A DNA stretch of 64,000 nucleotides from Moorella sp. Hama-1. GTDB lineage: Bacteria; Bacillota; DSM-521; Neomoorellales; Neomoorellaceae. The number at the start of each line of letters is the position of its first letter. Position 1 is the first letter of the stretch. The stretch is taken from positions 988,501 through 1,052,500 of the forward strand of contig NZ_AP024620.1 of NCBI RefSeq assembly GCF_023734095.1, read 5' to 3'. A program made the position numbers and the translations under genes. Under the pieces are notes generated by a model. The model was not told the origin of the DNA and ran no database searches. It worked only from the letters and a program-made list of their open reading frames with translations. Shown one piece after another: positions 4,919 to 60,851 of this stretch.

Positions 4919-5001
4919 TTAGCAAAGGGATTGCCAATTGTGTCATCAAGTATCTTCTTACGAGCCTATCAGGGCTCTTTTATTATGCCCTTTGCCAGGC
5001 A

Positions 5002-5031
5002 GTATAAAAACAGGTAGCCAGGGCAATAATT
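5002..5031 (+). promoter_or_regulatory. Sigma-F/sigma-G-type promoter of sigG
   Basis: GTATA at 5002-5006 and GGCAATAATT at 5022-5031 are separated by 15 bp. They fit the forespore sigma consensus (GYATA, about 15-16 bp, GGnnAnAnT) closely. The predicted start near 5037 is about 10 nt upstream of AGGAGG at 5048, so the leader would be very short. This fits forespore expression of sigG by sigma-F and then by itself. Confidence 0.6.
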
Positions 5032-5066
5032 ATCCCAGAACCAAGGTAGGAGGTATCGCGCAAGTC

Positions 5067-5837
5067 TTGCTTAACAAAGTAGAAATCTGCGGTGTGAATA
5101 CCTCCAAGTTACCCCTGCTGAAGAGCGAGGAAATCCGCCAGCTCTTCCAGCGGATGCAGGCTGGAGAAGCCGGAGCCCGGGAGAAACTCATAACCGGCAA
5201 TTTGCGCCTGGTCCTGAGTGTCATCCAGCGCTTCACCAACCGGGGCGAGCATGTGGATGACCTTTTTCAGGTTGGTTGTATCGGCCTCATGAAGGCCATC
5301 GACAATTTTGATCTCAGCCAGAATGTCAAGTTCTCTACCTACGCCGTACCCATGATCATCGGTGAGATCCGGCGTTACCTGCGGGACAATAACCCCATCC
5401 GGGTCAGCCGCTCCCTGCGGGATGTGGCCTACAAGGCCCTGCAGATCCGGGATACCCTGGTCAACCAGCTTGCCCGGGAACCATCCCTGGCCGAGGTGGC
5501 CCAGCACCTGAATGTCTCCCAGGAGGACGTAATCTTCGCCCTGGACGCCATCCAGGAACCGGTATCCCTGTTCGAACCGATTTACCATGACGGCGGCGAC
5601 CCTATCTTTGTCATGGACCAGATCGGGGATGAGAAGAACCAGGACATTAACTGGCTGGAGAATATCGCCATTAAAGAGGCCATGAACAAACTGAATCCCC
5701 GGGAGCGCTTGATTCTCTCCCTGCGGTTTTTTGAGGGCAAGACCCAGATGGAGGTCGCCGACGAGATCGGTATTTCCCAGGCCCAGGTTTCCCGGCTGGA
5801 AAAAGCCGCCCTGCAACATATGCGGAAGTATATTTAG
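5067..5837 (+). CDS. sigG: RNA polymerase sporulation sigma factor SigG
   Basis: This is the late forespore sigma factor. The product is nearly superposable on Bacillus SigG: NKVEICGVNTSKLPLL at the N-terminus (the region contacted by anti-sigma factors), region 2 LVLSVIQRF...DDLFQVGCIGLMKAIDNFD, region 3 NPIRVSRSLRDVAYKAL and region 4 EVADEIGISQAQVSRLEKAALQHM. The frame is open back to 4938, but similarity begins at NKVEICG. TTG at 5067, 13 nt after AGGAGG, gives 256 aa, the family length. spoIIR follows in the same orientation. Confidence 0.95.
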   Translation: MLNKVEICGVNTSKLPLLKSEEIRQLFQRMQAGEAGAREKLITGNLRLVLSVIQRFTNRGEHVDDLFQVGCIGLMKAIDNFDLSQNVKFSTYAVPMIIGEIRRYLRDNNPIRVSRSLRDVAYKALQIRDTLVNQLAREPSLAEVAQHLNVSQEDVIFALDAIQEPVSLFEPIYHDGGDPIFVMDQIGDEKNQDINWLENIAIKEAMNKLNPRERLILSLRFFEGKTQMEVADEIGISQAQVSRLEKAALQHMRKYI

Positions 5838-7755: not shown

Positions 7756-8724
7756 ATGAAGACGGCTTATAATCCTTTGCCGCCCCCGGCCCGCTCCCGG
7801 CCGCGACGCCGGCGCGCAGGTCCCTGGCTCCTGCGGGGGGTGGTCCTGGCAATACTACTCCTGGTGGCCTGGTCGGGCGCCAGGGCGGCGACCAGGGCCA
7901 TTGCCTGGCATTTTTTACTTATCCAGCAGGTAGATAGTGGCACCCTGGAGGATAACCTCCCCCTGGAGGTCTATATTGCCCGGGAGGAGCAGGTCCTGAC
8001 GGCGCCGGCAACCGGTAACTTGACCCCCGTGGTCCCGGAGGGAGAACGGGTGCCGGTGGGGGCTACCATTGCCCGCCTACTCCCGGTGGCGGCCGGTGCT
8101 CATCCTGTGGATTTAAAAGCACCTTATCCGGGCCAGGTTTCCTATGAGACGGATGGCCTGGAAGGGAGCCTGCAGCCGGCCAAACTGGGTAATACCAGCT
8201 ATCAGGATTTAAAACGCCTGGTAAACCTGGCCCGGCCGGTGACGGCCCGCGGTCAGGTCCGGGAAGGGGATCCCGTGGTTCGCCTGGTTAACAACCTGGC
8301 TCCTTTACGCCTGTATGCCCGCCTGAAGGAGCGGCCGGCGGGCTGGCAGGAGGGTCGGGAGGTAACCCTGAAGGTACCTGGCAGTGATGGCGATATCCGG
8401 GCGCGCCTCCTGCGCCTCCAGGATGAAGGCAACCAGCAGGCGGCAATTCTGGAGGTGGCTACCTGGGACAGCAACTGGCTTTTGCCCCGCCAGATGCAGG
8501 TGGTAGCCGTTTTGCATCGCTACCGGGGGATCATAATCCCGGCGTCAGCCCTGGCCGACGGGCCGGGGGGGAAGCAGGGGGTCTACCTCCTGGGAGCCAG
8601 GGAGCTGCAGTGGCAACCCGTTGAGGTACTGGGGCAGGTGGGGGATCAGGTGGCCGTCCAGGGCCTGACAGATGGGTCCGAGGTAGTCCTGCGGCCCCGG
8701 GTGGCCAGGTGGTTGATGAATTAG
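7756..8724 (+). CDS. HlyD-like single-span membrane protein
   Basis: This 322-aa protein has a basic N-terminus ([12 protein letters not shown]), one transmembrane segment at about residues 23-45 and an extracytoplasmic part. That part has two lipoyl/barrel-sandwich-like halves (VLTAPATGNLTPVVPEGERVPVGATIA; DLKAPYPGQVSYE) and a C-terminal IIIPASAL...GVYLL strand typical of HlyD/membrane-fusion proteins. ATG at 7756 is chosen. Upstream codons overlap pgeF. No transporter partner is adjacent, and proteins of this type recur in clostridial ylm clusters, so a division or envelope role is inferred only from position. Confidence 0.7.
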   Translation: MKTAYNPLPPPARSRPRRRRAGPWLLRGVVLAILLLVAWSGARAATRAIAWHFLLIQQVDSGTLEDNLPLEVYIAREEQVLTAPATGNLTPVVPEGERVPVGATIARLLPVAAGAHPVDLKAPYPGQVSYETDGLEGSLQPAKLGNTSYQDLKRLVNLARPVTARGQVREGDPVVRLVNNLAPLRLYARLKERPAGWQEGREVTLKVPGSDGDIRARLLRLQDEGNQQAAILEVATWDSNWLLPRQMQVVAVLHRYRGIIIPASALADGPGGKQGVYLLGARELQWQPVEVLGQVGDQVAVQGLTDGSEVVLRPRVARWLMN

Positions 8725-8789
8725 AACCCGCGAAAGCAGGATTTACAATAAATATGTAGAAAGTATAAAGAATTACGTGGGGGAAAAAC

Positions 8790-9500
8790 ATGGTTAATGT
8801 GAGGGAAAATATCGCCCGGGTGCAGGAGAGGATTGCTGCCGCTTCCCGGCGCAGCGGGCGCCGGCCGGAGGATATTACCCTGGTGGCGGTGACGAAAACG
8901 GTCCCTGTGGAACATATCCAGGAGGCTGTGGATTGCGGCCTCCGGGACCTGGGCGAGAACCGGGTCCAAGAACTCCTGGCCAAACAACCCCACCTCAAGG
9001 GGGTCAAGTGGCACCTTATCGGCCACCTGCAGCGGAATAAGGTACGCCAGGTGTGGGATCGGGTGACACTCATTCACTCGGTGGACAGCCTGGAGCTGGC
9101 CCGGGAGATCGACAAGCGGGCGGCCACTGCCGGGCGCCGGGTAGACATCCTCCTGGAGGTCAATGTAGCCGGGGAGGAGAGTAAATTCGGCCTTACACCC
9201 GAGGCCGTCCTGCCCCTGGTGCGGGATGTTGCCGGCCTGCCGGGGGTGCATATCTGTGGCCTGATGACGGTGGCGCCCCTGGTAAAAGATCCGGAAGAGG
9301 TACGGCCGGTCTTCCAGCGTCTGGCGTCTTTGCGGTGGGAGATTGACGCCCTGCGTCTTCCCGGGGTGGACATGGTTTACCTGTCCATGGGTATGACCAA
9401 CGATTTTGAGGTGGCTATTGAAGCCGGGGCCAACATGGTGCGTATCGGCTCGGCCATTTTTGGTGCCCGGGATTACAGTAAGAATGCGGAGGTGCAATAA
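8790..9500 (+). CDS. YggS family pyridoxal phosphate homeostasis protein
   Basis: This 236-aa PLP-binding protein of the COG0325 family has the fold of alanine racemase N-domains. The PLP lysine lies in LVAVTKTVP (about residue 36). [25 protein letters not shown] and [29 protein letters not shown] are family blocks, the last forming the phosphate-binding site. ATG start with GGGGG upstream. It is ylmE in Bacillus naming, directly before sepF. Confidence 0.93.
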
Positions 9501-9502
9501 GG

Positions 9503-9943
9503 GTGGCATTTTGGCATGGTTTAATCAACTGGCTGGGCTACGGCCACGAAGAAGAAGAGCCGGTGGTGGAGAAACCACTACCCGAACTGGAGACGGCCCC
9601 GGTGGCCCCGGCTAGAGGGAAGCTGGTGGGCCTGCCGACGGCGCGCAATGCTGTCCGCTTGGTTATCTCCCGGCCCCAGTCCTTTGAACAGGCCGCCGGG
9701 TTGGCCGAAAACCTGAAGAACTACCGGCCCTTGATTGTCAACGTCGAGGGCATACCCCTGGAAGAAGCGCGGCGGATTATCGATTTTTTGAGCGGTGCCG
9801 TTTACGCCCTGGGGGGACGGGTGCGCAAGGTAACCAGCGGTATCTTTTTATTTACCACCAGCAATGTCGACTTAAGCGGTGATCTGGAAGAACAAGTACC
9901 GGCGAACCTCAACTGGTTGGAAGCAGCCGGCCGGGGTAAATAG
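9503..9943 (+). CDS. sepF: Cell division protein SepF
   Basis: SepF forms rings that bundle FtsZ and anchor it to membrane. The 146-aa product starts with the amphipathic membrane-binding helix [12 protein letters not shown], has an acidic/Pro linker, then the DUF552 core ([30 protein letters not shown]...[16 protein letters not shown]). GTG start 2 nt after yggS. The C-terminal peptide of FtsZ in this window is the expected partner. Confidence 0.93.
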
Positions 9944-9957
9944 CAGGGGGTTAAAGA

Positions 9958-10752
9958 GTGGACGCAAATATCGGTTTCCTCGGTGCCGGGGCCATGGGTG
10001 AAGCCCTGATCCGGGGTATCCTCCAGGCCGGCCTGGTCCGGCCCGGGCAGATCAAGGCCTATGACATCCGGTCGTCACGATTAAAAGAACTCGAGTTACG
10101 CTACGGCCTGAAAACGGTGCCCGGCCGGGAAGAGTTAGTATCGACCGCGGATATAATAATCCTGGCCATTAAACCCCAGAATCTGGCGGAGGCTTTAACC
10201 GGCTTGCCAGTTACGAAGGACAAGCTAATTATTTCCATCGTGGCGGGGGTCAGTCTCTCCAGCCTGGCAGGATACCTGGGGGATGTGCCCCTGGTCAGGG
10301 TGGTGCCCAATACACCAGCCCTGGTAGGGGAAGGGATCTCCGCCCTGGCAGCCGGCGACCGCGTAGATAAGGAGGCCCTGGAGCAAGCCCTGGCCATCTT
10401 TCGTTCCGTTGGTGCGGCCATGATCCTGCCGGAAGAACATCTCAACGCCGTCACCGGTCTGAGCGGCAGTGGACCGGCTTATGTTTATATGATCATTGAA
10501 GCCCTGGCCGACGGTGGCGTGCGCCAGGGATTGGCCAGGCCGGTAGCCCTGGAACTGGCGGCCCGGACCCTCCTGGGGAGCGCGCGCATGGTCCTGGCCA
10601 CCGGCGAGCACCCTGGGGTCCTGAAGGACAGGGTAACCTCCCCAGCCGGGACTACCATCGCCGGCCTGGCTGTACTGGAAGACCGGGGCGTACGGGGGGC
10701 CCTCATCCGGGCTGTCGAGGCTGCTACCCTGCGGGCCGGTGAACTTGAATAA
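9958..10752 (+). CDS. proC: Pyrroline-5-carboxylate reductase
   Basis: ProC catalyses the last step of proline synthesis (P5C plus NAD(P)H to proline). The 264-aa product has the N-terminal dinucleotide motif IGFLGAGAMGEALIRG, the VRVVPNTPALVGEG block and the signature loop TGLSGSGPAYVYMIIEALADGGVRQGL, followed by SPAGTTIAGL. GTG start. It is embedded between sepF and yggT, where proC is also found in several other bacteria (yggS-proC-yggT). Confidence 0.95.
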   Translation: MDANIGFLGAGAMGEALIRGILQAGLVRPGQIKAYDIRSSRLKELELRYGLKTVPGREELVSTADIIILAIKPQNLAEALTGLPVTKDKLIISIVAGVSLSSLAGYLGDVPLVRVVPNTPALVGEGISALAAGDRVDKEALEQALAIFRSVGAAMILPEEHLNAVTGLSGSGPAYVYMIIEALADGGVRQGLARPVALELAARTLLGSARMVLATGEHPGVLKDRVTSPAGTTIAGLAVLEDRGVRGALIRAVEAATLRAGELE

Positions 10753-10764
10753 GGAGTAGATGGC

Positions 10765-11031
10765 ATGCAGACCCTGGCAGTCCTGGTCCGGGTGGCCTTT
10801 GAGGTCTTAAACTGGCTGATTATCGCCCGGATCCTCATATCCTGGTTTCCCCACGATCCCAACAACCCGATTATGCGGTTTATCTATGAGATTACAGAGC
10901 CGGTGCTGGCTCCCTTTCGCCGCCTGATGCCGCGTACAACCATGCCCATTGATTTTTCACCCATTATCGCCGTCCTGGTTTTGCAACTGGTGGAGCGCCT
11001 GCTGATCAGTTTTATCCTGCATATGGGTTAG
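10765..11031 (+). CDS. YggT family membrane protein
   Basis: This 88-aa protein has two transmembrane segments (about 5-25 and 60-82) flanking the YggT motif ILISWFPHDPNNPIMRFIYEITEPVLAPFRRLMP. The family (YlmG in Bacillus) is linked with cell division and osmotic or chloroplast division phenotypes in other organisms. AAGGAG lies before the ATG. ylmH, which often follows, is absent. divIVA starts 12 nt downstream. Confidence 0.9.
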   Translation: MQTLAVLVRVAFEVLNWLIIARILISWFPHDPNNPIMRFIYEITEPVLAPFRRLMPRTTMPIDFSPIIAVLVLQLVERLLISFILHMG

Positions 11032-47979: not shown

Positions 47980-48168
47980 ATGAAGAGACGGGACTTGATA
48001 CAAAAGCTGAAATCAGCCGGTTGGTATCTTAAACGACATGGAGATGAGCACGACATTTATAAGCATGATAGGCCAACCGGGAAGCGCGACCTGGTGCAGG
48101 TCCCAAGGCATCGAGAGATTAACGAAATAACCGCCAAACAAATCCTAAAAGACGCTGGGCTGAAATAG
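47980..48168 (+). CDS. hicA: HicA-type mRNA interferase toxin
   Basis: This 62-aa dsRBD-like toxin (MKRRDLIQKLKSAGWYLKRHGDEHDIYKHDRPTGKRDLVQVPRHREINEITAKQILKDAGLK) has the catalytic His in KRHGDEHDIY. ATG at 47980 follows AGGTGGGG. HicA cleaves mRNA when freed from HicB. AT-rich relative to the core genes. Confidence 0.9.
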   Translation: MKRRDLIQKLKSAGWYLKRHGDEHDIYKHDRPTGKRDLVQVPRHREINEITAKQILKDAGLK

Positions 48169-48221
48169 GCCCACGCTTTTAGTGCTTATGAAAAACCAAA
48201 ACAAGGAGATGAGATCAGAGC

Positions 48222-48614
48222 GTGGTTTACGTTTTTCCCGCGATCTTCACGCCATCACAAAATGGATACGCTGTTCGTTTCCCAGATTTACCCGGCACAA
48301 ATAGTCAGGGTAAAGATATGGCTAATGCTATTTATATGGCGCGTGACGCCCTAGCGATGTGGCTTGACTATCTAATGGACGAGGGCAGGGAAATCCCCCG
48401 GCCATCAGCCCCAGGTGATATAACCTTGGAACCCGGTCAGTTTGTGACAATGATAGATGCTGATATGACGGCTTACCGTCGCCGTAAAAATTCAAAAGCA
48501 GTTAAAAAGACGGTAACTATCCCCGCCTGGCTTAACGAAAAAGCTGAAGCCCATAAATTAAACTTTTCAGCCATTCTTCAAGAGGGATTGAAAAAGCATA
48601 TTGGTGACCGTTGA
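48222..48614 (+). CDS. hicB: HicB-type antitoxin
   Basis: This 130-aa antitoxin has a partial RNase H-like domain (YVFPAIFTPSQNGYAVRFPDLPGTNSQGKDMANAIYMARDAL) and a C-terminal ribbon-helix-helix-like DNA-binding segment (KTVTIPAWLNEKAEAHKLNFSAILQEGLKKHIG). GTG start. It follows hicA by 53 nt, the toxin-first order. The C-terminal DNA-binding part makes it the likely ligand of the palindrome in the promoter. Confidence 0.9.
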   Translation: MVYVFPAIFTPSQNGYAVRFPDLPGTNSQGKDMANAIYMARDALAMWLDYLMDEGREIPRPSAPGDITLEPGQFVTMIDADMTAYRRRKNSKAVKKTVTIPAWLNEKAEAHKLNFSAILQEGLKKHIGDR

Positions 48615-48802
48615 TAAGCTACCGACCTTTAACCCGGGCATAATCTTTTCCCTGAAAGGTAACTTGGTGGATATGAGGATAATATTAGGCACCCAATATA
48701 ACAGAATAGGGAAAAAGATGCAGCATTAAGAAAACCTGAACACAACGGCCAGGTATATCAGACGGGCAGGGCTGATCTGGAGGCGGCTGTGGAGAAGATT
48801 GC
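48615..48802 (+). other. Gene-free junction before truncated helicase
   Basis: No complete gene is seen. A TGA closes the helicase frame just before ATG 48803. The bases immediately before the recognisable helicase resemble a scrambled Walker A context, consistent with a deletion or rearrangement junction that removed the N-terminal part of the helicase. Confidence 0.5.
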
Positions 48803-51265
48803 ATGGGATTTTTTACTTTGACGTTGCCCAAGACCGGTAAAACCTTCAGCGCTCTGGGGATCATCAAGTATTACGAACTGCGTAACAAGTCTGTGCTGGT
48901 GCTCTGTCCCAAGAAGCTGGGAGAAAACTGGCTTACATTCCGGCAAAATGTCACTAACAACATCTTATACCGCGACCGGTTCCGCTATGATGTGCTTTAT
49001 CACACGGATCTGTCCCGGGAAAGCGGCTATACCAATGGTATTCCCTTAGACCGGATCAACTGGGGCAATTACGACCTTCTGGTTATCGACGAGTCTCACA
49101 ACTTCAGGAACAACGAAGCCAGAAAGGAAAAGGAGACACGTTACCAGAAGCTGATGCGCAAGGTAATTCAGGCTGGCGTTAAGACCAAAGTGCTCATGCT
49201 CTCGGCCACCCCGGTCAACAACCGTTTCAATGACCTGAAAAACCAGCTGGCCCTGGCCTACGAGGGAGATCCAAAAAATATCAACCCTTCCCTCAATACC
49301 GAAAAAGGTGTAGAAGAAATATTCCGCCGTGCCCAGGTGGCCTTTAACAGCTGGTCCAGGTTGCCTGTTGCCAGGAGAACGACGGAAACCCTGCTGGAAA
49401 TGCTGGACTTTGACTTTTTTGAACTGCTGGATAGCGTTACCATTGCCCGTTCCAGAAAACATATCCAGAATTATTATGATACAACAGAAATCGGCTCCTT
49501 CCCTAAGCGCTTAAAACCCCTTTCTTATTTCTGCGACCTCACCAGGCGCGAGGACGCGATCGGCTACAACGAGATATTTCGAGAGCTTTCCCGTCTGACC
49601 CTGGCCCTTTATGCGCCTTTTGATTACATATTACCCAGCAGGGTAAAATTTTACGAAGAACAGTATGATACTGTTGTGAAAAGCGGTGGAAGCCTGAAGC
49701 AACTAGACCGGGAGAGAAGCTTACAGGTCCTGATGCGGATCAATCTGCTCAAGAGGCTTGAAAGCTCCGTAGATGCTTTTCGGATCACCCTTTCCAAAAT
49801 GCTGGAAAAGATCAGTGCAACTTTAAAGCTCATAGATAGCTATAACGATTCTGCGACTTCCCAAACCTTCGGCCATACCGAATTCGATGCCGTGAACCTG
49901 GATGATGACGACTGGCTGGACGAGAACTACAACATAGGCGACAATATCAGGATCAACCTCTCAGATATGGATAGGCTCCGCTGGCGGGAGGACCTGGAAA
50001 GGGACCGGAAAGTTTTCGTCAGTTTGCTGGCGGAGATGGGGAAAATCACACCGGAACACGACGAGAAGCTGGCTACTCTGAAAAAAGTGATCGCCCACAA
50101 AATGAGCAACCCCGTTAATCCGGGTAACAAGAAAATATTAATCTTCACCGCCTTTGCGGATACTGCCGCCTACCTGTTTAAACAGGTTGCTCCTTATGTA
50201 AAAAATAACTTCGGGCTGGAGACCGCCAAAGTAGTGGGCAGCGACGAAAACAAGACCACCATCAAAATTAAAAACGATTTGCATACCATATTGACCTGCT
50301 TTTCCCCCAGAGCAAAGGAAAAGCATCTTACTATGCCCGACCTGGAAGGGGAGCTGGATATCCTCATTGCTACCGACTGCATTTCGGAGGGCCAGAATTT
50401 GCAGGACTGCGATTACCTAATTAATTATGATATCCACTGGAACCCAGTCAGGATTGTTCAGCGCTTCGGGCGCATTGACAGAATAGGCTCCCCCAACGAA
50501 GTCATTCAGTTGGTGAACTTCTGGCCCAACATGACTTTAGACGAGTATATTAACCTGAAAGAACGAGTGGAAAACAGAATGGTCATCGTGGATATGACCG
50601 CCACCGGGGAGGACAACGTCCTTTCCAACCAGTCCAACGACCTGGAGTACAGAAAGGAGCAGTTGAAAAAACTTCAGGAAGAGGCCATCGACTTTGATGA
50701 GATAAACACCGGGGTTTCCATTACCGACCTGGGGTTAAACGACTTCCGCATGGACCTGCTGGAATATGTAAAAAAAGAGGGCGATCTGAGCAAAGTCCCT
50801 CCAGGCCTGCATGCCGTTGTACCCGCTGCCGGGGAAAAAGGGGCTCCTAACGGTGTCATTTTCGTCTTACGCAATGTTAACAGCGAAGTAAACATCAATA
50901 ACCAGAACCGGCTGCACCCCTTTTACCTGGTCTATATCGGCAGCGACGGGCAGGTGGTTGCCAACCATCTGGAGGTAAAAAAGACCCTGGATTTATTAAG
51001 GTTATTATGTAAAGGGCGCAGGGAGCCTCTGGAAGAAGTCTATAAACCTTTTAACCGGGAAACCAGGGACGGTCGTAAAATGGACCGGTATTCCCGCCTT
51101 CTGGAAGCGGCTATAAAATCTATTATTGAGGTTAAGGAAGAAAGCGACCTGGACAGCCTTTTCAGCGCCGGCGGCACGACCGCCCTTCTGGATACCATCC
51201 GGGGCCTGGAAGACTTTGAGCTGTTCGCCTTCGTGGTGGTGAGGGAGAAGGATGCCCGTGTTTAA
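48803..51265 (+). CDS. SNF2-type helicase of a restriction-like system, N-terminally truncated
   Basis: This 820-aa superfamily 2 helicase has motif II LLVIDESHNF at about residue 96, motif III MLSATPVNN and the C-terminal helicase lobe with IATDCISEGQNLQDCDYLINYDIHWNPVRIVQRFGRIDRIGS. Walker A, expected as DEVGLGKT, reads LPKTGKTF at residues 8-15 with no domain before it. Relatives normally carry a further N-terminal region (often PLD-like), so the gene is probably 5'-truncated and may be inactive. It overlaps the DUF4391 gene by 14 nt. Confidence 0.75.
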   Translation: MGFFTLTLPKTGKTFSALGIIKYYELRNKSVLVLCPKKLGENWLTFRQNVTNNILYRDRFRYDVLYHTDLSRESGYTNGIPLDRINWGNYDLLVIDESHNFRNNEARKEKETRYQKLMRKVIQAGVKTKVLMLSATPVNNRFNDLKNQLALAYEGDPKNINPSLNTEKGVEEIFRRAQVAFNSWSRLPVARRTTETLLEMLDFDFFELLDSVTIARSRKHIQNYYDTTEIGSFPKRLKPLSYFCDLTRREDAIGYNEIFRELSRLTLALYAPFDYILPSRVKFYEEQYDTVVKSGGSLKQLDRERSLQVLMRINLLKRLESSVDAFRITLSKMLEKISATLKLIDSYNDSATSQTFGHTEFDAVNLDDDDWLDENYNIGDNIRINLSDMDRLRWREDLERDRKVFVSLLAEMGKITPEHDEKLATLKKVIAHKMSNPVNPGNKKILIFTAFADTAAYLFKQVAPYVKNNFGLETAKVVGSDENKTTIKIKNDLHTILTCFSPRAKEKHLTMPDLEGELDILIATDCISEGQNLQDCDYLINYDIHWNPVRIVQRFGRIDRIGSPNEVIQLVNFWPNMTLDEYINLKERVENRMVIVDMTATGEDNVLSNQSNDLEYRKEQLKKLQEEAIDFDEINTGVSITDLGLNDFRMDLLEYVKKEGDLSKVPPGLHAVVPAAGEKGAPNGVIFVLRNVNSEVNINNQNRLHPFYLVYIGSDGQVVANHLEVKKTLDLLRLLCKGRREPLEEVYKPFNRETRDGRKMDRYSRLLEAAIKSIIEVKEESDLDSLFSAGGTTALLDTIRGLEDFELFAFVVVREKDARV

Positions 51266-51911
51266 CCTGCCGGAAACAACCCTGATAAATAAAAAAATAC
51301 CCAAAAACAAATTTTATGAGAAGCTGCAAGCCGACAAAACCCTCAGGGGAAAGTTCGTCCGCCAGGTGGATTACATCTTGTGGAAGCACAAGCTTTCCGG
51401 GCATACCGTTAACCTTTCCCCGACCAAAGAAATAGAGGAGATAGAGGTTTTTGAGGTGCACCTGAAACAAAGGAACCTGTCCCGGGAAGTGCTGGAAAGT
51501 ATCGACCGGGCTATACCTTACCCCATCCTTTACGCCCTGGTTTACCATGATGAAGTTCAGCTGGCTGTGGCTTATAAAAAACGGAGCAAACAGTATGAGG
51601 ACCGCTTTGTGGTCGATTCTTATTATTACTCCCCATGGCAAAAGGCTGAAGAGATATCCCTGGACCTGCTGAAAGGCCTGGACCTGCAGGCCGTTTACGA
51701 AAATCTCATCAAAAGCCTGCTTCCGGGAAGCAAGGAAGGGATATCCAACCTGGAGCAGGCTATTGAAAAACAAAAGGCAGCCGACAGGTTGAAGCGGGAA
51801 ATTGCCGCTCTGGAGGCAAAGATGCACAGGGAGCCCCAGTTCAACCGGAAAGTAGAATACAACCTGAAACTGCTGGAAAAAAGAAAGGATCTGGAGAAAA
51901 TATTGGAGTAA
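51252..51911 (+). CDS. DUF4391 family protein
   Basis: This 219-aa protein has FNLPETTLINKKIPKNKFYEKLQADKTLRGKFVRQVDYILWKHKLS at the N-terminus, VYHDEVQLAVAYKKRSK in the middle and a C-terminal coiled coil (LEQAIEKQKAADRLKREIAALEAKM). The pattern fits DUF4391, a family of unknown function commonly coded beside helicases and DNA methylases of defence loci. It is translationally coupled on both sides, so it is an obligate component of this locus rather than a bystander. Confidence 0.75.
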   Translation: MPVFNLPETTLINKKIPKNKFYEKLQADKTLRGKFVRQVDYILWKHKLSGHTVNLSPTKEIEEIEVFEVHLKQRNLSREVLESIDRAIPYPILYALVYHDEVQLAVAYKKRSKQYEDRFVVDSYYYSPWQKAEEISLDLLKGLDLQAVYENLIKSLLPGSKEGISNLEQAIEKQKAADRLKREIAALEAKMHREPQFNRKVEYNLKLLEKRKDLEKILE

Positions 51912-51925
51912 TGGAGGTTTTGCTG

Positions 51926-53785
51926 ATGGAAAAGCTGAAAATGGAAACCCAAGACCTTCTTAAGGAGAACATAGAAAAATTGGCGGAAATATTTCCGGGC
52001 GTCATTACCGAGGTGAGGGACGAAAAGGGGAACCCGATCAAAGCCGTTGACTTTGAGCTATTAAAGCAGGAGCTGTCCGGCCGGGTGGTGGAAGGGGATA
52101 GGGAGCGCTATCAGCTCACCTGGCCCGGCAAAAAAGAAGCCATACTCCTGGCCAACATGCCCATCAATAAAACCCTGCGCCCGGTGAAGGAAGAAAGCGT
52201 GGACTGGGAGAATACCGGCAACCTGTATATTGAAGGGGATAACCTGGAGGCCCTCAAGATCCTGCAGGAATCCTACCTCAATAAGATTAAGTGCATCTAT
52301 ATCGATCCCCCTTACAACACGGGGAAGGACTTCATTTACAAAGATAATTTCAAACAGAGCAGGGAAGAATACCTGGCCGAATCGGGACAGGTGGACGGCG
52401 ACGGCAACCGTCTCTTCCAGAACACCGAGTCCAACGGGCGTTTCCACAGCGACTGGCTGAGCATGATGTATCCTAGGTTAAAGCTGGCCAGGAATTTGCT
52501 GCGGGAGGATGGGGTGATATTTATAAGTGTCGATGATAATGAAGTAGCAAACTTAAGGAAATTGTGTGATGTTGTTTTCGGAGAGAACAATTTTGTTGCA
52601 AATGCTATTTGGGAAAAAAAGTTTTCACCTCAAAATGACGCTAAGTGGTTTAGTGATAATCATGATCATATATTAATTTATGCAAAAACAAAAGAAATAT
52701 GGCGGCCTTTTAAGTTGCCTAGAAAATTTGAAAACAATAGATACCAAAATCCAGATAATGACCCTCGAGGACCTTGGGCCTCATCTGATTTAACAGTAAA
52801 AACATATAACGCTGATTATGATTATCCAATTAAGACTCCAAGTGGAAAAATAATTAGTCCTACCAAGGGTCGTTGTTGGGCGGTTCCTAGAGAACGTTTC
52901 GAAGAATTATTGAAGGATAATCGTATATGGTTTGGTAAGACAGGAAGTAATGTACCTCGAATAAAAACATTTTTGTCTGAGGTTAAAGATGGAATTGTTC
53001 CTTTAACAATATGGGAATATAGTGAGGTTGGTCACAATCAAGAGGCAAGGCAAGAAATTAAAATTTTGTTTGATGATAATGCATATTTTGATAATCCGAA
53101 ACCAGTTAGGCTATTAATGAGAATCTTAATGCTTTCTACTAAAGAAAATGATATAATTCTAGATTTTTTTTCTGGCTCCGCCACCACCGCCCACGCAGTC
53201 ATGCAGCTCAATGCCGAAGACGGGGGCAATCGGAAATATATTATGGTCCAACTTCCCGAACCTTGCCCTGAAGACTCCGAAGCTTACAAGGCAGGCTTTA
53301 AAAACATCTCCGAAATCGGTAAGGAGCGCATCAGAAGAGCGGCCAAAAAGATCAAAGAAGAAACCGGCGCCGATATCGACTATGGCTTCCGGGTGTTCAA
53401 AGTGGACTCCTCCAACATGAAGGATGTCTATTACCGCCCGGAGGAACTCTCTCAGCAGGATTTATTTGGTATGGTATCCAACATCAAAGAAGACCGGACG
53501 GGAGAAGACCTTTTAATCCAGGTGATGCTGGAATGGGGCCTGGAACTCTCCCTGCCCATGGAAAAAAGGGACATTTTGGGCAAGGAAGTCTATTTTGTGG
53601 CCGGCAACTCCCTGGTGGCCTGCTTTGATGAAGGCGTTTCCGAGGGGCTGGTCCGGGAGATTGCTAAGGAAAAGCCCTTGCGGGTGGTGTTCCGGGACAA
53701 CTCTTTTGCCGATGACGCGGCGCGGATTAACGTAGAGGAGCTTTTTAAGATGCTTTCCCCCACCACCGAGATAAAGGTTATTTAG
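51926..53785 (+). CDS. Type III restriction-modification DNA methylase (Mod)
   Basis: This 619-aa beta-class adenine methylase has an N-terminal coiled region, the YIDPPYNTGKDFIY motif IV at about residues 125-138 and DFFSGSATTAHAVMQL motif I at about 413-428. A long target-recognition domain lies between them, and then the Mod C-terminal part. ATG at 51926 is 8 nt from GGAGG. The recognition domain (about 52530-53170) is far AT-richer than the flanks, as if exchanged. The Res gene follows after 14 nt. Confidence 0.92.
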   Translation: MEKLKMETQDLLKENIEKLAEIFPGVITEVRDEKGNPIKAVDFELLKQELSGRVVEGDRERYQLTWPGKKEAILLANMPINKTLRPVKEESVDWENTGNLYIEGDNLEALKILQESYLNKIKCIYIDPPYNTGKDFIYKDNFKQSREEYLAESGQVDGDGNRLFQNTESNGRFHSDWLSMMYPRLKLARNLLREDGVIFISVDDNEVANLRKLCDVVFGENNFVANAIWEKKFSPQNDAKWFSDNHDHILIYAKTKEIWRPFKLPRKFENNRYQNPDNDPRGPWASSDLTVKTYNADYDYPIKTPSGKIISPTKGRCWAVPRERFEELLKDNRIWFGKTGSNVPRIKTFLSEVKDGIVPLTIWEYSEVGHNQEARQEIKILFDDNAYFDNPKPVRLLMRILMLSTKENDIILDFFSGSATTAHAVMQLNAEDGGNRKYIMVQLPEPCPEDSEAYKAGFKNISEIGKERIRRAAKKIKEETGADIDYGFRVFKVDSSNMKDVYYRPEELSQQDLFGMVSNIKEDRTGEDLLIQVMLEWGLELSLPMEKRDILGKEVYFVAGNSLVACFDEGVSEGLVREIAKEKPLRVVFRDNSFADDAARINVEELFKMLSPTTEIKVI

Positions 53786-53799
53786 GCAGGTGAAAGGTA

Positions 53800-56700
53800 T
53801 TGAAGCTAAAGTTTAAAATCCAGCAGTTCCAGACCGACGCGGTTAACGCCGCAGTAGACTGCTTTGCCGGGCAGCCCAACGAGCAGTCCCTATTCACTTT
53901 GGATATGGGACAGCTAAAATCCGGCCCGCAGATGGGTATTTCTTATGAAGTTACCGGGTTCAGGAACAGGCCCATCGAGCTCACGCCGGAGGAGGTCTTT
54001 GATAATATCAGAAAAGTACAAGCTAGAGACGGCCTGAAAATATCTCCTAAATTGGAAGGTAAATATAACCTGACAGTGGAGATGGAGACGGGAACGGGGA
54101 AGACCTACGTCTATATCAAGACCATGTTTGAGCTGTTTAAGAAATACGGCTGGGGCAAATATATCGTAGTGGTCCCCTCCATCGCCATCAGGGAAGGGGT
54201 CAAAAAGTCCTTTGAGATAACAGAAGAGCACTTCATGGAGCAGTACGGCCGTAAGGCCCGCTATTTCATCTACAATTCCCGGCAGCTCCACAAGATCGAC
54301 CAGTTTGCCAGCGATCCGGGGATCAACGTAATGATCATCAATACCCAGGCTTTTAACGCCCGCGGCAAAGACGCCCGCAGGATTTACATGGAGCTGGACG
54401 AGTTTCAGTCCCGGATGCCCATAGATGTCATTGCCCAGGCCAACCCCATTTTAATCATCGACGAACCCCAGTCAGTAGAGGGTGAAAAGACGGTAGAGGC
54501 CCTAAAGCTTTTTAAGCCTTTATTCACTGTCCGCTACTCGGCTACTCACCGGCACGAGTATAACAAGGTTTACCGGCTGGACGCCCTGGATGCCTACAAT
54601 AAAAAGCTGGTCAAGAAGATTAATGTTAAGGGCATCACCGTAAAAGGAACTACCGGGACCGACGGCTACCTTTATCTGGGAGAGATAAATGTCAGCCAGA
54701 AACACTATCCCCTGGCCCGCCTGGAGTTTGAAAGAAAGACCCGCTCCGGTATAAGGCGGGAATTGAGACGGGTTTCGATAAACGATAACCTGTACGAATT
54801 ATCCGGCGGTCTCGAACAATACAGGGGCTATATTGTATCCGAGATTAACGGGGCAAAAAATACCATCGAATTTGCCAATGGGGTTTCTTTGTCTGCCGGA
54901 GATGTCCAGGGGGACGTCAACGAGCTGACCCTGCGCCGGATCCAGATCCGGGAGACCATCAAGTCCCACCTGGAAAAAGAACGGAACTTATTTTACCGGG
55001 GCATCAAGGTGCTCTCCCTGTTCTTTATCGACGAGGTGGCCAAATACAGGCAGTACGACAAAAACGGAAACAAGCGCAATGGTGAATATGCCCGGATCTT
55101 TGAAGAAGAGTACCGGATGCTGGTGGAGGAATACTTGAGAAATACAGATGATCAAGACCGGTATGCTAACTATTTGAGGCAGATAGATGTAGAAAAGACC
55201 CATAACGGCTACTTTGCCATTGATAAACAGGGACGGATGACCAATCCAAAAGTAAAAGCCAGGGAGACTGATTCAGAAGACGAGGACGCCTACAATTTGA
55301 TTATGAAGGACAAGGAAGGGCTTTTAAGCTTTTCCGAGCCGACACGCTTTATCTTCTCCCATTCGGCTTTAAAGGAAGGTTGGGACAACCCCAATGTTTT
55401 TCAGATCTGTACCTTAAAGCACAGTGACTCCACCATTAAAAAACGGCAGGAAGTGGGAAGAGGCCTCCGGTTGTGCGTAAACCAGGATGGCGAAAGGATC
55501 GACGACTCGGTGCCGGGTATTGATGTGCACGAGGTCAATGTTCTCTCCGTTGTGGCCAGCGAATCCTACGAGACCTTTGCCAGGGAACTACAGAAGGAGA
55601 TCGCCGAGACCCTTTCCGATCGCCCCCACAAGGTGGATATTCAGTTTTTCCTGGATAAAGTCCTGACTAACGAAAGGGAAGAAGAGATCCGGATCGATGA
55701 GCGGCTGGCCCGGAAGCTTTATCAAACTTTTGTTAGAAACAACTATATTGACGAAGAGGATAACCTGACTGAGGGCTATCACCAGGCGGCAGAAAAAGGG
55801 GAAATCACCCTCCCGGAGGAGTTAAAGGAACATCAACAGGCCGTTATAGATCTGGTGAGCACTGTTTACAGCGAAACTGATTCTCGGCTGGTTCATAACG
55901 AGCGCAACAAAAATGTGGAGTTGAAGTTAAATGATAACTTTTATAAAGAAGAGTTTCAAAAACTGTGGCAGAAGATTAACGTCAAAACGGCTTACATAGT
56001 TAAGTTTGAAACAGAAGAGTTGGTTGAAAGGTGCATAAACGCCCTGGATACTCGTTTGAGGATAGCGGATATATCTTATCAAATAAAGGACGGAGTATTA
56101 GAAACCATTGACTCTAAAGAGCAATTAGAAAAGGGCGAGGGCTTTGTAGTTAGAGAAGCGGAAACAGGTAAGGTGCATGGGGAAGTTACTTCGGGTGTTC
56201 GTTACGACCTGGCAGGTAAGCTCATGAGTGAGACCGGATTGACCCGGAAGACCATCGTAAAAATCTTGACGGGGGTAAAACAGGAAACCTTTGATCTTTT
56301 TAAAAAGAACCCGGAAGAGTTTATTATAAAGGCTGCCAGAATCATTAACGAAGAAAAGGCCACTACCATCATCGAACGGACTACGTACGATCCTACCAAC
56401 GAGACTTATAACACGGATATTTTTACCCAAAACACCCTGAAGGGTATGCTTGGCGATAATGCCTTGCCGGTTAGCAAGCATGTCTATAATTATGTGATCA
56501 CAGATTCCAATACAGAAAAAAAGTTCGCCCGGGATCTGGATACCAGCAAGGAAGTCTGTGTCTATGCCAAGCTGCCCAGGGGCTTTTTCATCCCGACACC
56601 TGTAGGAAACTATAACCCCGACTGGGCCATTGTGTTTGAAGAAAATAAGGTAAAACATGTGTATTTTATTGCCGAAACCAAAGGCAGCATGGCTTCTCTG

Positions 56701-56826
56701 GAACTAAGAAAAATTGAAGAGGCCAAAATATACTGCGCCAGGAAACATTTTGAAAAAATCAGCAACAACAGCGTCAAGTATGACGTAGTCGAGAATTATG
56801 AAAAGTTATTGGAGATAGTAAGGTGA
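53800..56826 (+). CDS. Type III restriction endonuclease subunit (Res)
   Basis: This 1008-aa protein has a DEAD/DEAH-type translocase with Walker A VEMETGTGKTYVYIKT at about residues 93-108, motif II LIIDEPQSVEG near 217 and the arginine-finger block KKRQEVGRGLRLCVN. A C-terminal PD-(D/E)XK nuclease has NPDWAIVFE...IAETKG (about 938-963). All expected Res elements are present and the frame is intact. TTG start. It acts with Mod, which sets the site specificity. Confidence 0.92.
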   Translation: MKLKFKIQQFQTDAVNAAVDCFAGQPNEQSLFTLDMGQLKSGPQMGISYEVTGFRNRPIELTPEEVFDNIRKVQARDGLKISPKLEGKYNLTVEMETGTGKTYVYIKTMFELFKKYGWGKYIVVVPSIAIREGVKKSFEITEEHFMEQYGRKARYFIYNSRQLHKIDQFASDPGINVMIINTQAFNARGKDARRIYMELDEFQSRMPIDVIAQANPILIIDEPQSVEGEKTVEALKLFKPLFTVRYSATHRHEYNKVYRLDALDAYNKKLVKKINVKGITVKGTTGTDGYLYLGEINVSQKHYPLARLEFERKTRSGIRRELRRVSINDNLYELSGGLEQYRGYIVSEINGAKNTIEFANGVSLSAGDVQGDVNELTLRRIQIRETIKSHLEKERNLFYRGIKVLSLFFIDEVAKYRQYDKNGNKRNGEYARIFEEEYRMLVEEYLRNTDDQDRYANYLRQIDVEKTHNGYFAIDKQGRMTNPKVKARETDSEDEDAYNLIMKDKEGLLSFSEPTRFIFSHSALKEGWDNPNVFQICTLKHSDSTIKKRQEVGRGLRLCVNQDGERIDDSVPGIDVHEVNVLSVVASESYETFARELQKEIAETLSDRPHKVDIQFFLDKVLTNEREEEIRIDERLARKLYQTFVRNNYIDEEDNLTEGYHQAAEKGEITLPEELKEHQQAVIDLVSTVYSETDSRLVHNERNKNVELKLNDNFYKEEFQKLWQKINVKTAYIVKFETEELVERCINALDTRLRIADISYQIKDGVLETIDSKEQLEKGEGFVVREAETGKVHGEVTSGVRYDLAGKLMSETGLTRKTIVKILTGVKQETFDLFKKNPEEFIIKAARIINEEKATTIIERTTYDPTNETYNTDIFTQNTLKGMLGDNALPVSKHVYNYVITDSNTEKKFARDLDTSKEVCVYAKLPRGFFIPTPVGNYNPDWAIVFEENKVKHVYFIAETKGSMASLELRKIEEAKIYCARKHFEKISNNSVKYDVVENYEKLLEIVR

Positions 56827-57059
56827 ATGTCTAATCTAGAATCAAGGAAGGGCTGAATAGCAATGGCTGTCTCGGATTTCCGGAATTTAATGCTTCCTTT
56901 GAGCTAATGATGGAGAAGGAATACATCGCCGGATGGCGAATTATACCTTCAGAGTAAGTTTTAGCTATGCCTTGAGCTGCCATTTTTATTGGCACTGTGA
57001 ATAGATAACTTATAAGGTACCCAAAATATCATAAGCATAGTTGGGTGGGAGGTGACTGG

Positions 57060-58307
57060 ATGATCCATGCTATTGAAGCTTTGAACTTTCGCTGCCTGCA
57101 TTATGTACGGCAACAACTCCGTTCTTTCAATGTACTAGTCGGACCCAACGCCAGTGGTAAGACGACGTTTCTGGATACAGTAGCTTTCCTTGGCGATCTA
57201 CTTTCAAATGGATTAGAAGCTGCAGTCCAGCAACGTACCAGTAACTTTCGTGATTTGGTTTGGCTGCAGGGCGAGCGGCCCCTGGAAATCGCCGTCAATT
57301 TCATCATCCCTGAAAAACGGCGTCGGCTTACGCTCTACAAGGATTACGACGTGTGCCGCTATGAGATATCCGTTGGTCTAGACGGGGATACAGGTGAGAT
57401 ATCCATTTCAGGTGAAAAGGTACTACTGAAAAAATTAGAGCCTGCGACTCCTCTTCAACTGGAGTTTTTCCCCATGCAGCCACCAATACCAGATACCATT
57501 CTTACCCCCAGGTCCGCCAGGAATATTAAGATGGTGGTCAATAAAGTACCGGGAGGTAACGACAACTTTTACAGTGAAACCGACAAGGGTTGGGCCCCAT
57601 CCTTCAAGCTAGGGGCGAGAAAGTCGGCCCTGGCCAACCTGCCGGATGATGAGTCACGTTTTCCAGTTGCTACATGGCTGAAAGGCATGTTGATGGAAGG
57701 GATCCAAAGAATGGTCCTGAACAGCATGTTGATGCGCAAACCCAGCCCACCCGGTCAGCCAAGGAATTTTCGTCCTGATGGTTCCAACCTGCCCTGGGTA
57801 ATTGATAACCTGGCGAAAAGCGCTCCCAATCTGTTCCAGGATTGGATCATGCACTTGCGGACGGCTTTGCCCGACCTGGAAGACATCAAGACCATTGAAC
57901 GACCGGAAGACCGCCATCGGTATCTGGTTGTGCGATATCGGGGTGGATTGGAGGTTCCCTCCTGGATGGTATCCGATGGTACCTTGCGGCTGCTGGCCTT
58001 GACCCTCCCGGCATATATCCCGGATTTGTCGGGTATTTTTCTGATTGAGGAACCAGAAAATGGCATTCACCCCCGGGCCATTGAAACAGTCTTTCAATCT
58101 TTATCTTCAGTTTATAGCGCGCAAGTCCTTTTAGCCACGCATTCTCCGGTGATCTTGAGTGTGGCAGAGCCTGAGCAGGTTCTTTGCTTTGCCAAAACCG
58201 ATCAAGGGGAAACGTCTGTTGTACGTGGGACGGAACACCCGGCCCTCAAAGAGTGGCGCGGCGAGACCAACCTGGGGGTGTTATTTGCCGGGGGGGTGCT
58301 AGGGTGA
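57060..58307 (+). CDS. AAA family ATPase (OLD/RecF-like), first gene of a two-gene module
   Basis: This 415-aa ATPase of the ABC/SMC-like class has IHAIEALNFRCLHYVRQQLRSFNVLVGPNASGKTTFLDTV (Walker A about residues 29-37). A long insertion follows, then IFLIEEPENGIHPRA (Walker B) and LLATHSPVILSV near the end. ATG at 57060 follows GGGAGGTGA. No nuclease domain is fused. The partner gene overlaps its stop by 4 nt. Such ATPase plus Toprim-like pairs are common in anti-phage systems. The 230 bp before it hold no gene. Confidence 0.8.
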   Translation: MIHAIEALNFRCLHYVRQQLRSFNVLVGPNASGKTTFLDTVAFLGDLLSNGLEAAVQQRTSNFRDLVWLQGERPLEIAVNFIIPEKRRRLTLYKDYDVCRYEISVGLDGDTGEISISGEKVLLKKLEPATPLQLEFFPMQPPIPDTILTPRSARNIKMVVNKVPGGNDNFYSETDKGWAPSFKLGARKSALANLPDDESRFPVATWLKGMLMEGIQRMVLNSMLMRKPSPPGQPRNFRPDGSNLPWVIDNLAKSAPNLFQDWIMHLRTALPDLEDIKTIERPEDRHRYLVVRYRGGLEVPSWMVSDGTLRLLALTLPAYIPDLSGIFLIEEPENGIHPRAIETVFQSLSSVYSAQVLLATHSPVILSVAEPEQVLCFAKTDQGETSVVRGTEHPALKEWRGETNLGVLFAGGVLG

Positions 58308-58936
58308 CAGTGACCAGTACCTTTCAATATGACCTGGCTATACTTGTACCGGATAAGAATATGGAAGCAGCGGTAAAGGGTATCTTATCTCGTCCCCGGG
58401 CTCTGGGTATTAGAGATATCGCTTTTCGGGTCTACACCCATATGGAACATGATCCTGGATGCTATCACCGTGGCCATGATTTCCTGAGGTCCATGGTGAA
58501 AAGCCATCACTATGCTCTCATAGTTTTTGACAGGATGGGTTGCGGCCGGGAGGCTATGAATCGAAGGGACATCGAGAAAGTAGTCGAAAACAATTTGGTC
58601 AGCGGTGGATGGGATAATCGTGCAGCAGCGGTTGTTATTGATCCAGAACTGGAAGTTTGGGTCTGGAGCAACTCACCGGAAGTGGCAAACACCCTTGGCT
58701 GGCCTTCGGATATGCCAGATCTGAAGGACTGGCTAAAGACCAAAGGATATTGGACAGATAATAGTATTAAGCCTTCTGACCCGAAACTTGCTTTTGAACA
58801 GGTCCTATATCAGACTAGAAAACCGCGCTCGTCGGCTATCTATGAGCAACTGGGTCGGAGGGTCAGTTTTCAACGTTGTACGGACCCTGCTTTTGGAAAG
58901 TTTAAAAGAACCTTGCAAAGATGGTTCGGAAGGTAA
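58304..58936 (+). CDS. Toprim/DUF4276-like partner of the ATPase
   Basis: This 210-aa protein (YDLAILVPDKNMEAAVKGIL...YALIVFDRMGCG...RAAAVVIDPELEVWVWS) has the acidic-residue spacing of a Toprim-type fold: an early E, then DxxGC, then a DPELE strand. GTG overlaps the ATPase stop (GTGA), so the two are translationally coupled. The organisation resembles effector pairs such as PARIS or the MAD3-MAD4 pair of the methylation-associated system. I cannot assign it to a named family with certainty. Confidence 0.6.
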   Translation: MTVTSTFQYDLAILVPDKNMEAAVKGILSRPRALGIRDIAFRVYTHMEHDPGCYHRGHDFLRSMVKSHHYALIVFDRMGCGREAMNRRDIEKVVENNLVSGGWDNRAAAVVIDPELEVWVWSNSPEVANTLGWPSDMPDLKDWLKTKGYWTDNSIKPSDPKLAFEQVLYQTRKPRSSAIYEQLGRRVSFQRCTDPAFGKFKRTLQRWFGR

Positions 58937-59010: not shown

Positions 59011-60851
59011 CCTGAAATCGGCAAGTAAAAATTTGTATGAAGAAGAAACGTACCAAAACCCTGTTAATATACCATTGATTGCCAGAAATTAATAAGAATC
59101 ACCTTTTCAATCACTCACTTGAAGAATGGTAGCCTGAAAAATGGGTAACATCATCTAACCCCTGATTGACAGGGATTTTTAAGAAAGCGGTGCTTACTGT
59201 TGGCAGCTAAAGTTTAACCTTGGTTAAAGAAATACCTTTTCAGCATCGTAACGGATAAAGCTTCTCGACTACCACATACAAGAACTTTTCGAGGTTCGTT
59301 TTAATTGCGTTTACTACCATTCCCAACCATTTATTAGCCGCCAGGCGAATATGCCGGTAGCGGCCGTTACCGACAATGTTGCCTGGTATACAGAGGATTT
59401 TATGCCTGATGGTTTCCGCCTGGTATCTTTTGATGGCCTCAGGCAAGGTCACTTCTTTAAACCAGAGCAATAGATTGTAGGCAATTGCCTTGACCAGCAT
59501 ATAGGCTTCGTTACGTAAGAAGGTATGCTGGCTGGCTTCTTCGACCGCAAAACCATCTTTTAGTTCTTCGATCCATAGTTCACAGGTTCCTCGCTGATTG
59601 TAGAAGCGCCACACCTCGATGGTCGGCATATCTTCGGCCGGGATGTTAGTAACAATGGCCTGGTACTTGTAAAAATCGGGATGCTGGATATAGAGTTGCC
59701 CAGTTACCGGCTCTAAATCCTGGCGGATGAAAACAAAACGCCTGGCTTTAGCCCACTTGGGCAAGGGAATGGTTAATTCGGCGACGCTGTAGACGTCATC
59801 TATTCTTTGCCACAGGTTTTCACGGTCAAGATAAGCAATGACTTTTTGCAGTCCCCCACGCAAAGGGGCCTTGCAGACATAGAGGTAAGTCTGTTCCTCG
59901 AAGTAATCGAAGTTTTTTCGTCAAAGAAACCTTTATCCAGGCGTACTCCCTTTAAAACGTAATTCCTTGGCAATCTCTGCTCCGTATCCTGAAAGAAGTT
60001 TAGAAAACCACCGTTGCTATGGATTTTACCATTATAGGCCTTGAGATTAAGCAGTTCAGCGGTTTCGGCTATAAAGGCGACTTTAGCCTTCAGGGAAGGG
60101 CGGCCATGATAACGGGGATTGTAGCCTATCGCCCCGCCTTCCTGGGAACCATGCAAAGTGATAACGGTGTCGTCAATATCTAACCATATCTCCCTGGGTG
60201 GTACTGTTTTAGAGCGCATTTCCCGTAGCTGCTGATCAATAGAGCGTAGCTCTTCCAGGGAATTTTCCTGCATGGCAGCCAGCAGACGCCTAAAACCCGT
60301 TTCCTCAGGGAAATCGTCAATACCCTTGATTTTAGCGTAACCCTGTTCATTCCTTATACACTGCGTATGTTCAAAGCGGGATAACCCTAATATCTGGGCA
60401 TCGATCAGAAAATCCAGCATTTCCGGGGGCTGATATTTACTGTTAGGCGCTTTGCGCATCGTTAAGGTGTTACGGATTATGTTCTTAAAACCTATGGCCT
60501 GCTTAAAGGCTTCTATCAGACCAAAATTAGCAAACCTGGTGACTGTATGGTTATCAAAGGTTGTTGGCAGGTTATAACGGCTAATTTTCTTCTGTAATCG
60601 GCGTTTCTCAAGCTCAATCTTTCTTCTTTCACTTCTCAATAAAGGAGGCGCTTGACGGTGACTGCTTTCTTGTTGTACCATCATCTTGAAGACATCCTTT
60701 CTTTTGGATTCTCTTGACAAGTATCCAATTAGATTCGGAAAGGGTGTCTTCCTTCTTTTTCTGTAAAAAAATTTTCGGCTTTCTTTTTGAGGAAAGTAAC
60801 TTGTATCAATGGCTTTAAGCTTGGATGCCGGTGTTACTTGCCGGTTATAGG
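59011..60851 (-). mobile_element. IS1380-family insertion sequence
   Basis: Ends are inverted repeats: CCTGAAATCGGCAAGTAA at 59011 and, on the minus strand from 60851, CCTATAACCGGCAAGTAA. The 5-bp sequence ATAAA lies directly outside both ends (59006-59010 and 60852-60856), as target duplication. The single transposase gene fills most of its 1841 bp. Confidence 0.88.
59240..60684 (-). pseudogene. IS1380-family transposase, frameshifted
   Basis: The N-terminal part (60684 to about 59910) has RFANFGLIEAFKQAIGF and the DDE-type aspartate in IWLDIDDTVITLHGSQEGGAIGYNPRYHGRPSLK. The C-terminal part (to 59240) has the ELWIEELKDGFAVEEASQHTF block with the catalytic Glu. The two lie in different frames. 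At 59911-59916 an A6 run (minus strand) reads GACGAAAAAACTTCG, where one more A would restore FFDEKNFDYFEEQ. The gene is therefore either disrupted by a 1-bp loss or expressed by slippage on A6. Confidence 0.85.

Follow-up and report, generated by a model that had tools for sequence, protein, structure and literature searches.

Exchange of an AT-rich recognition domain in a type III DNA methyltransferase gene of Moorella sp. Hama-1

Does a sharp fall in GC content in the middle of a gene betray a piece of imported DNA, or is it a property of the domain encoded there? The question is raised by a mod gene of Moorella sp. Hama-1, found in a stretch of 64,000 nucleotides, here called the window, of a complete genome of 3.32 Mb. 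An initial annotation noticed an AT-rich island at 52530-53170 of this gene, identified it with the target-recognition domain (TRD), and pointed out that domain exchange by recombination would switch the specificity of the whole system. We consider it very probable that an AT-rich block containing the TRD was imported into this Mod by recombination in the conserved motifs that flank it, and that the catalytic domains, the C-terminal domain and the res gene belong to an older, more GC-rich resident.

A type III system and its methyltransferase

The mod gene is part of an operon-like series, at 48803-56826, composed of genes for a Snf2-type helicase, a DUF4391 protein, Mod and Res (Table 1). The Mod protein presents the motif order of type III methyltransferases: DPPYNTG at residues 132-138, then the TRD, then LDFFSGSA at residues 417-424, in addition to a PF01555 match. 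Its predicted model, of mean pLDDT 81, has the Mod subunit of EcoP15I as best structural match in Foldseek (4zcf_A, TM 0.69/0.70), and also matches 6k0w and 7dsu. The two Mods have in common their fold and the order motif IV, TRD, motif I, but they are 27% identical, and their TRDs are too diverged for a continuous sequence match. The adjacent Res carries helicase and endonuclease domains (ResIII, RE_endonuc and REase_III), which places the system in type III. Systems of this type methylate one strand of an asymmetric site of 5-6 bp, and their Res cuts only with Mod, which supplies the recognition of the site.

Table 1. Coordinates in the window of the genes, motifs and segments discussed in the text.
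Feature	Position	Strand	Evidence
Snf2-type helicase, N-terminally truncated relative to its L109 homologue (1084 aa)	48803..51265	+	
DUF4391 protein, co-oriented with mod	51252..51911	+	PF14335 8.9e-59; same order in L073, L109
mod, type III beta-class DNA N6-adenine methyltransferase subunit, 624 aa	51911..53785	+	Pfam PF01555 2.4e-40; PADLOC MTase_III 3e-255, residues 6-624; model vs EcoP15I Mod 4zcf, Foldseek E 1.2e-42
Catalytic motif IV DPPYNTG, upstream of block	52304..52324	+	Sequence; invariant in 25 homologues
Conserved DGVIFISVDDNE, 5' junction of block (codon 203)	52508..52543	+	Recurrent GC3 step in other homologues, aa 190-209
AT-rich replaced block (TRD and conserved shoulders), codons 203-421	52517..53171	+	Maximum-likelihood change points; GC3 far below expectation
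TRD variable core, residues 229-375	52595..53035	+	Identity to L039, L148-L151 and L115 (see text)
Motif I LDFFSGSA, 3' junction at codon 421/422	53159..53182	+	Third-position A/T run turns to G/C at 53171-53174; L039 alignment resumes at 53174
res, type III restriction subunit, 1008 aa, not exchanged	53800..56826	+	PADLOC REase_III E 0; PF19778 RE_endonuc; continuous 86% DNA identity with L039

The neighbourhood of these genes deserves a few remarks. The open frame of the helicase starts just before Walker A, and the homologue of locus L109 aligns only from residue 12 of the window helicase, so that about 260 N-terminal residues are missing; according to the PADLOC HKD+Snf2 model, the absent part is an HKD nuclease. 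Judging from these alignments, the helicase gene is probably truncated at its 5' end. A gene for a HicB-like antitoxin (PF15919) lies directly upstream of it, at 48222-48614. Beyond the type III locus, two genes at 57045-58936 match NCBIfam MADS3 and MADS4, of the methylation-associated defence system, above cut-off, and the remaining MADS components were not found among the adjacent open frames examined. At the edge of this defence island, at 59240-60720 on the minus strand, an IS1380-family transposase is split in two open frames.

The AT-rich block and its edges

Evaluated over segments of 200 bp, the GC content of mod lies mostly between 0.46 and 0.56, falls to 0.32-0.39 at 52500-53200, and returns to 0.45-0.56 afterwards; the lowest value outside the block is 0.43, at the first codons. 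The maximum-likelihood block on plain GC is 655 bases long, with a GC content of 0.322 inside and 0.517 in the rest of mod, and its ends agree with those of the annotated island within about 13 bases. Most of the fall sits at third codon positions: third-position GC (GC3) is 0.17 in the block and 0.67 elsewhere in the gene. The initial annotation was thus right in describing mod as GC-balanced on both sides of the island, with a different codon choice inside. The log-likelihood gain of the GC3 step is about 70-72, against at most 8.9 in 100 codon shuffles, and the next steepest step among the 26 long open frames of the window has a gain of 20.3, which makes that of mod the largest intragenic codon shift.

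A protein rich in certain amino acids could have produced a low GC content by itself. However, the GC3 predicted from the amino acids of the block and the local codon usage is 0.615 ± 0.033 over 10,000 simulations, with a minimum of 0.483, and the observed value is 0.172. The low GC content is consequently a matter of synonymous codon choice, and amino-acid composition is ruled out as its cause.

Alignment to relatives indicates that the block consists of the TRD and short conserved shoulders, in agreement with the proposed identity of island and TRD. Its placement between motifs IV and I is right at one end: the block ends in motif I, but at the other end it begins at DGVIFISVDDNE, some 190 bases after motif IV. 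The codon step maps the 3' edge to about one codon: the sequence reads ATA ATT CTA GAT TTT TTT TCT, then GGC TCC GCC ACC ACC GCC. In the nearest relative by backbone, Firmicutes bacterium UBA2203 (locus L039), the residues ILDFF are GC-coded, as ATC CTC GAC TTC TTC, whereas they are AT-coded in the window. The same residues being coded in opposite ways, codon choice appears to track the origin of the DNA and not the protein, and the 3' junctions to differ: the junction is inside motif I in the window, and slightly upstream of it in L039. The 5' edge is less sharp, and is found at codon 203 in both sequences; given this common step, the 5' junction may predate the 3' junction.

Exchange of the centre on conserved flanks

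The initial annotation had opposed two possible outcomes of an alignment of Mod relatives: conserved flanks with a variable centre, which would speak for exchange, and uniform divergence along Mod, which would speak against it. The comparison with L039 rejects the second. The two DNA sequences are 86.8% identical over 51915-52603, and 86.1% identical in one unbroken stretch from 53174 to 56826, which takes in the last part of mod and the complete res; nothing aligns between these segments. In the Mod proteins, identity is 0.89 for the backbone and 0.25 for the recognition core. Two close relatives thus have conserved flanks and a non-homologous centre. A milder dip in GC content, to 0.36-0.41, is seen within res at 55800-56200: since DNA identity with L039 is unbroken across it, this dip is not a block exchanged between the two. 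Locus L039 has peculiarities of its own: upstream of its intact mod, at 4927-5142, a remnant fuses the end of the DUF4391 gene to an internal piece of mod, and its res, at 8022-10998, is split by a frameshift or by an assembly error.

The reverse arrangement, in which similar centres sit on divergent backbones, is also found. The TRD core of the window is 62-70% identical in amino acids to the cores of L148-L151 and of the viral contig L115, which are Mods of other architecture: L148 and L149 are open frames of about 950 aa that match the window Mod only at residues 100-448, and L150, L151 and L115, of 561, 569 and 635 aa, are, when compared end to end with the window Mod, 47-53% identical in the N part and 11-18% in the C-terminal part. 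Similarly, loci L062 and L064 have TRDs that are 91% identical and backbones that are 59% identical. Over 102 homologues, the identities of the N and C parts are correlated with a rho of 0.575, against 0.21 between TRD and N part and 0.08 between TRD and C part; and in 57 of the 74 pairs whose backbones are more than 80% identical, the TRDs are less than 40% identical. We take these alignments to show that the centre of mod was exchanged as a block on conserved flanks.

Such an exchange would have proceeded as follows. A fragment of an AT-rich mod, most likely from another lineage given the block GC3 of about 0.17, would have entered the resident gene by recombination at the conserved motifs DGVIFISVDD and LDFFSG; the older, more GC-rich resident system would have kept its own catalytic domains, C-terminal domain and entire res, and the imported block would not yet have adapted to the codon usage of its host. 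Both homologous recombination as the route and the AT-rich donor are what we infer from the position and the codons of the block. Since in type III systems Res depends on Mod to find its sites, restriction would be redirected along with modification; from established knowledge of these systems, the recognition motif would have changed, with Res following the new motif.

Low GC3 in recognition domains and the source of the block

If all members of the family had the same low-GC centre, the initial annotation held, the case for domain exchange would suffer. This turns out to be partly so: GC3 is lower in the centre than in the backbone in 89% of the 102 homologues, with a mean difference of -0.14 (Wilcoxon 6e-16, a nominal value, the sequences being related), but not in all of them, and the window Mod is the extreme, with the largest TRD drop of the set, -0.48. 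In AT-rich hosts TRD and backbone are equal and there is no drop; in GC-rich ones it is about -0.2. In type I systems of the same phylum, all of the 17 HsdS loci that were measurable, out of 30 and with flanks of 1500 bp, have a TRD GC3 below that of the neighbouring open frame. With a low-GC3 centre as widespread as this, AT-richness alone neither dates nor sources an import, and it is the discordant alignment that decides: the AT-rich centre of mod was indeed exchanged, but its AT-richness is no private mark of the event.

These figures open the way to an alternative, in which AT-richness is mainly intrinsic to TRDs: lacking homologous partners, and thereby GC-biased gene conversion, or being under weak codon selection, TRDs would drift to an AT-biased mutational equilibrium, and swapping would occur without creating the island. 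The breadth of the trend, in Mod and in HsdS, is in its favour, and so are the pooled means of GC3, 0.38 for TRDs and 0.52 for backbones, which would be beyond the reach of exchange within the sampled family. Exchange within one pool cannot by itself bring down the mean GC3 of the pooled centres, and therefore either the donors are mainly AT-rich, or another factor keeps TRDs AT-rich. Moreover, in the 57 swapped pairs with backbones above 80%, the GC3 residuals of the TRDs are closer than permuted ones, 0.063 vs 0.126, an effect that is gone at a cut-off of 75%; this likeness hints at a host- or locus-level share in AT-richness. No signal of inheritance of the residuals was seen among nearest TRD neighbours in the 102 homologues.

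Drift, however, fits poorly with edges that are step-like and fall inside conserved motifs, in the window and in several homologues, with the opposite coding of identical motif I residues in the window and L039, and with the equality of TRD and backbone in AT-rich hosts. Codon by codon, too, the picture is unfavourable to it: inside the block, codons conserved in the family (GC3 0.34-0.45) and variable codons (0.34-0.37) hardly differ in AT-richness, and variable codons outside are at 0.46-0.54. Finally, the TRDs of L062 and L064 stay at 0.24 and 0.25 on backbones of 0.61 and 0.42. As the main cause of the island, we regard intrinsic drift as unlikely, and retain the import of an AT-rich block.

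In the homologues, GC3 steps are concentrated around aa 130-149, 190-209 and 410-420. Sequence conservation at the 5' steps exceeds that at random positions (0.770 vs 0.723, p 0.0005), and the 3' steps show no such excess (p 0.36). That the position of the block recurs in many homologues would suit a fixed functional codon pattern, with slow or AT-rich TRD codons selected for folding or mRNA structure and no recombination. Yet the edges differ among homologues, being near aa 130-149 or 190-209 on one side and 410-420 or 450-495 on the other, several GC-rich hosts have little or no drop (L037 0.72, L103 0.62, L018 0.73), and the exchanged sequence is left unexplained: we hold this explanation to be very improbable.

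Exchange of recognition domains in type III mod genes is already known. In the modA genes of Neisseria and Haemophilus, DRDs are transferred en bloc between species, and the Neisseria allele modA12 has a GC content of 40/28/40% in its 5' part, DRD and 3' part (Gawthorne et al. 2012, PMC3311624). The window locus adds a case of the modA kind, with conserved ends, an exchanged central recognition domain, and a GC drop of the same sign, from 0.52 to 0.32. It differs in that the phase variation of modA genes depends on repeats and their exchange takes place within naturally transformable pathogens, whereas the window mod is without repeat tract and is accompanied by DUF4391 and helicase genes. It is a clean case outside well-studied pathogens, one block being imported and the rest, from methylase core and C-terminal domain to nuclease subunit, kept.

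The survey of 102 homologues widens a remark on a single allele, the low GC of modA12, into a broad and testable tendency, whose breadth is not stated in the literature searched, most subscription journals lying outside its reach. The TRDs of type I HsdS share with that of Mod both exchangeability and low GC3, the latter relative to the neighbouring gene; they differ in belonging, two at a time, to a separate specificity subunit, and homology to the Mod TRD is not expected. It is conceivable, if somewhat doubtful, that AT-richness is a general rule of exchangeable specificity modules in restriction-modification systems, in type III Mod as in type I HsdS, resulting from an AT-rich donor pool or from escape from GC-raising recombination. 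Were the escape true, the GC3 of TRDs versus backbones would offer a natural test of bacterial GC-biased gene conversion.

Where does the block come from? It is present in a single copy, and neither a second copy of the TRD nor another close Mod was found in the complete genome, so that its source is outside DNA. In the same genome, 18 genomes of the family, 398 of the phylum, plasmids, phages and IMG/VR, the best DNA match to the block is 68-70%, and no protein exceeds about 70% over the TRD core except L036, at 71%. Local inversion or cassette switching of the TRD, on the model of shufflon-like HsdS loci, would find precedent in relatives such as L066, with tandem mods, near-identical backbones and different TRDs; for this genome it is refuted by the single copy of the block, unless other strains carry silent cassettes, and both the absence of another close Mod and that of a tandem repeat tract in mod tell against it as well. 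We deem it exceedingly improbable. Nor does this mod show the simple repeat tract of a phasevarion gene: no tandem repeat was found in it or just upstream; the only repeat in 48000-57500 is a weak one of 11 bases at 49990.

Loci L037, L044, L066, L092, L094, L111 and L112 carry two or three mod genes of one general type. Their recognition domains mostly differ, as in L066, where identity is 92% for the backbone and 23% for the core, and two copies of L112 are close (95% and 80%). Loci with several mod genes could possibly constitute a local reservoir of recognition domains.
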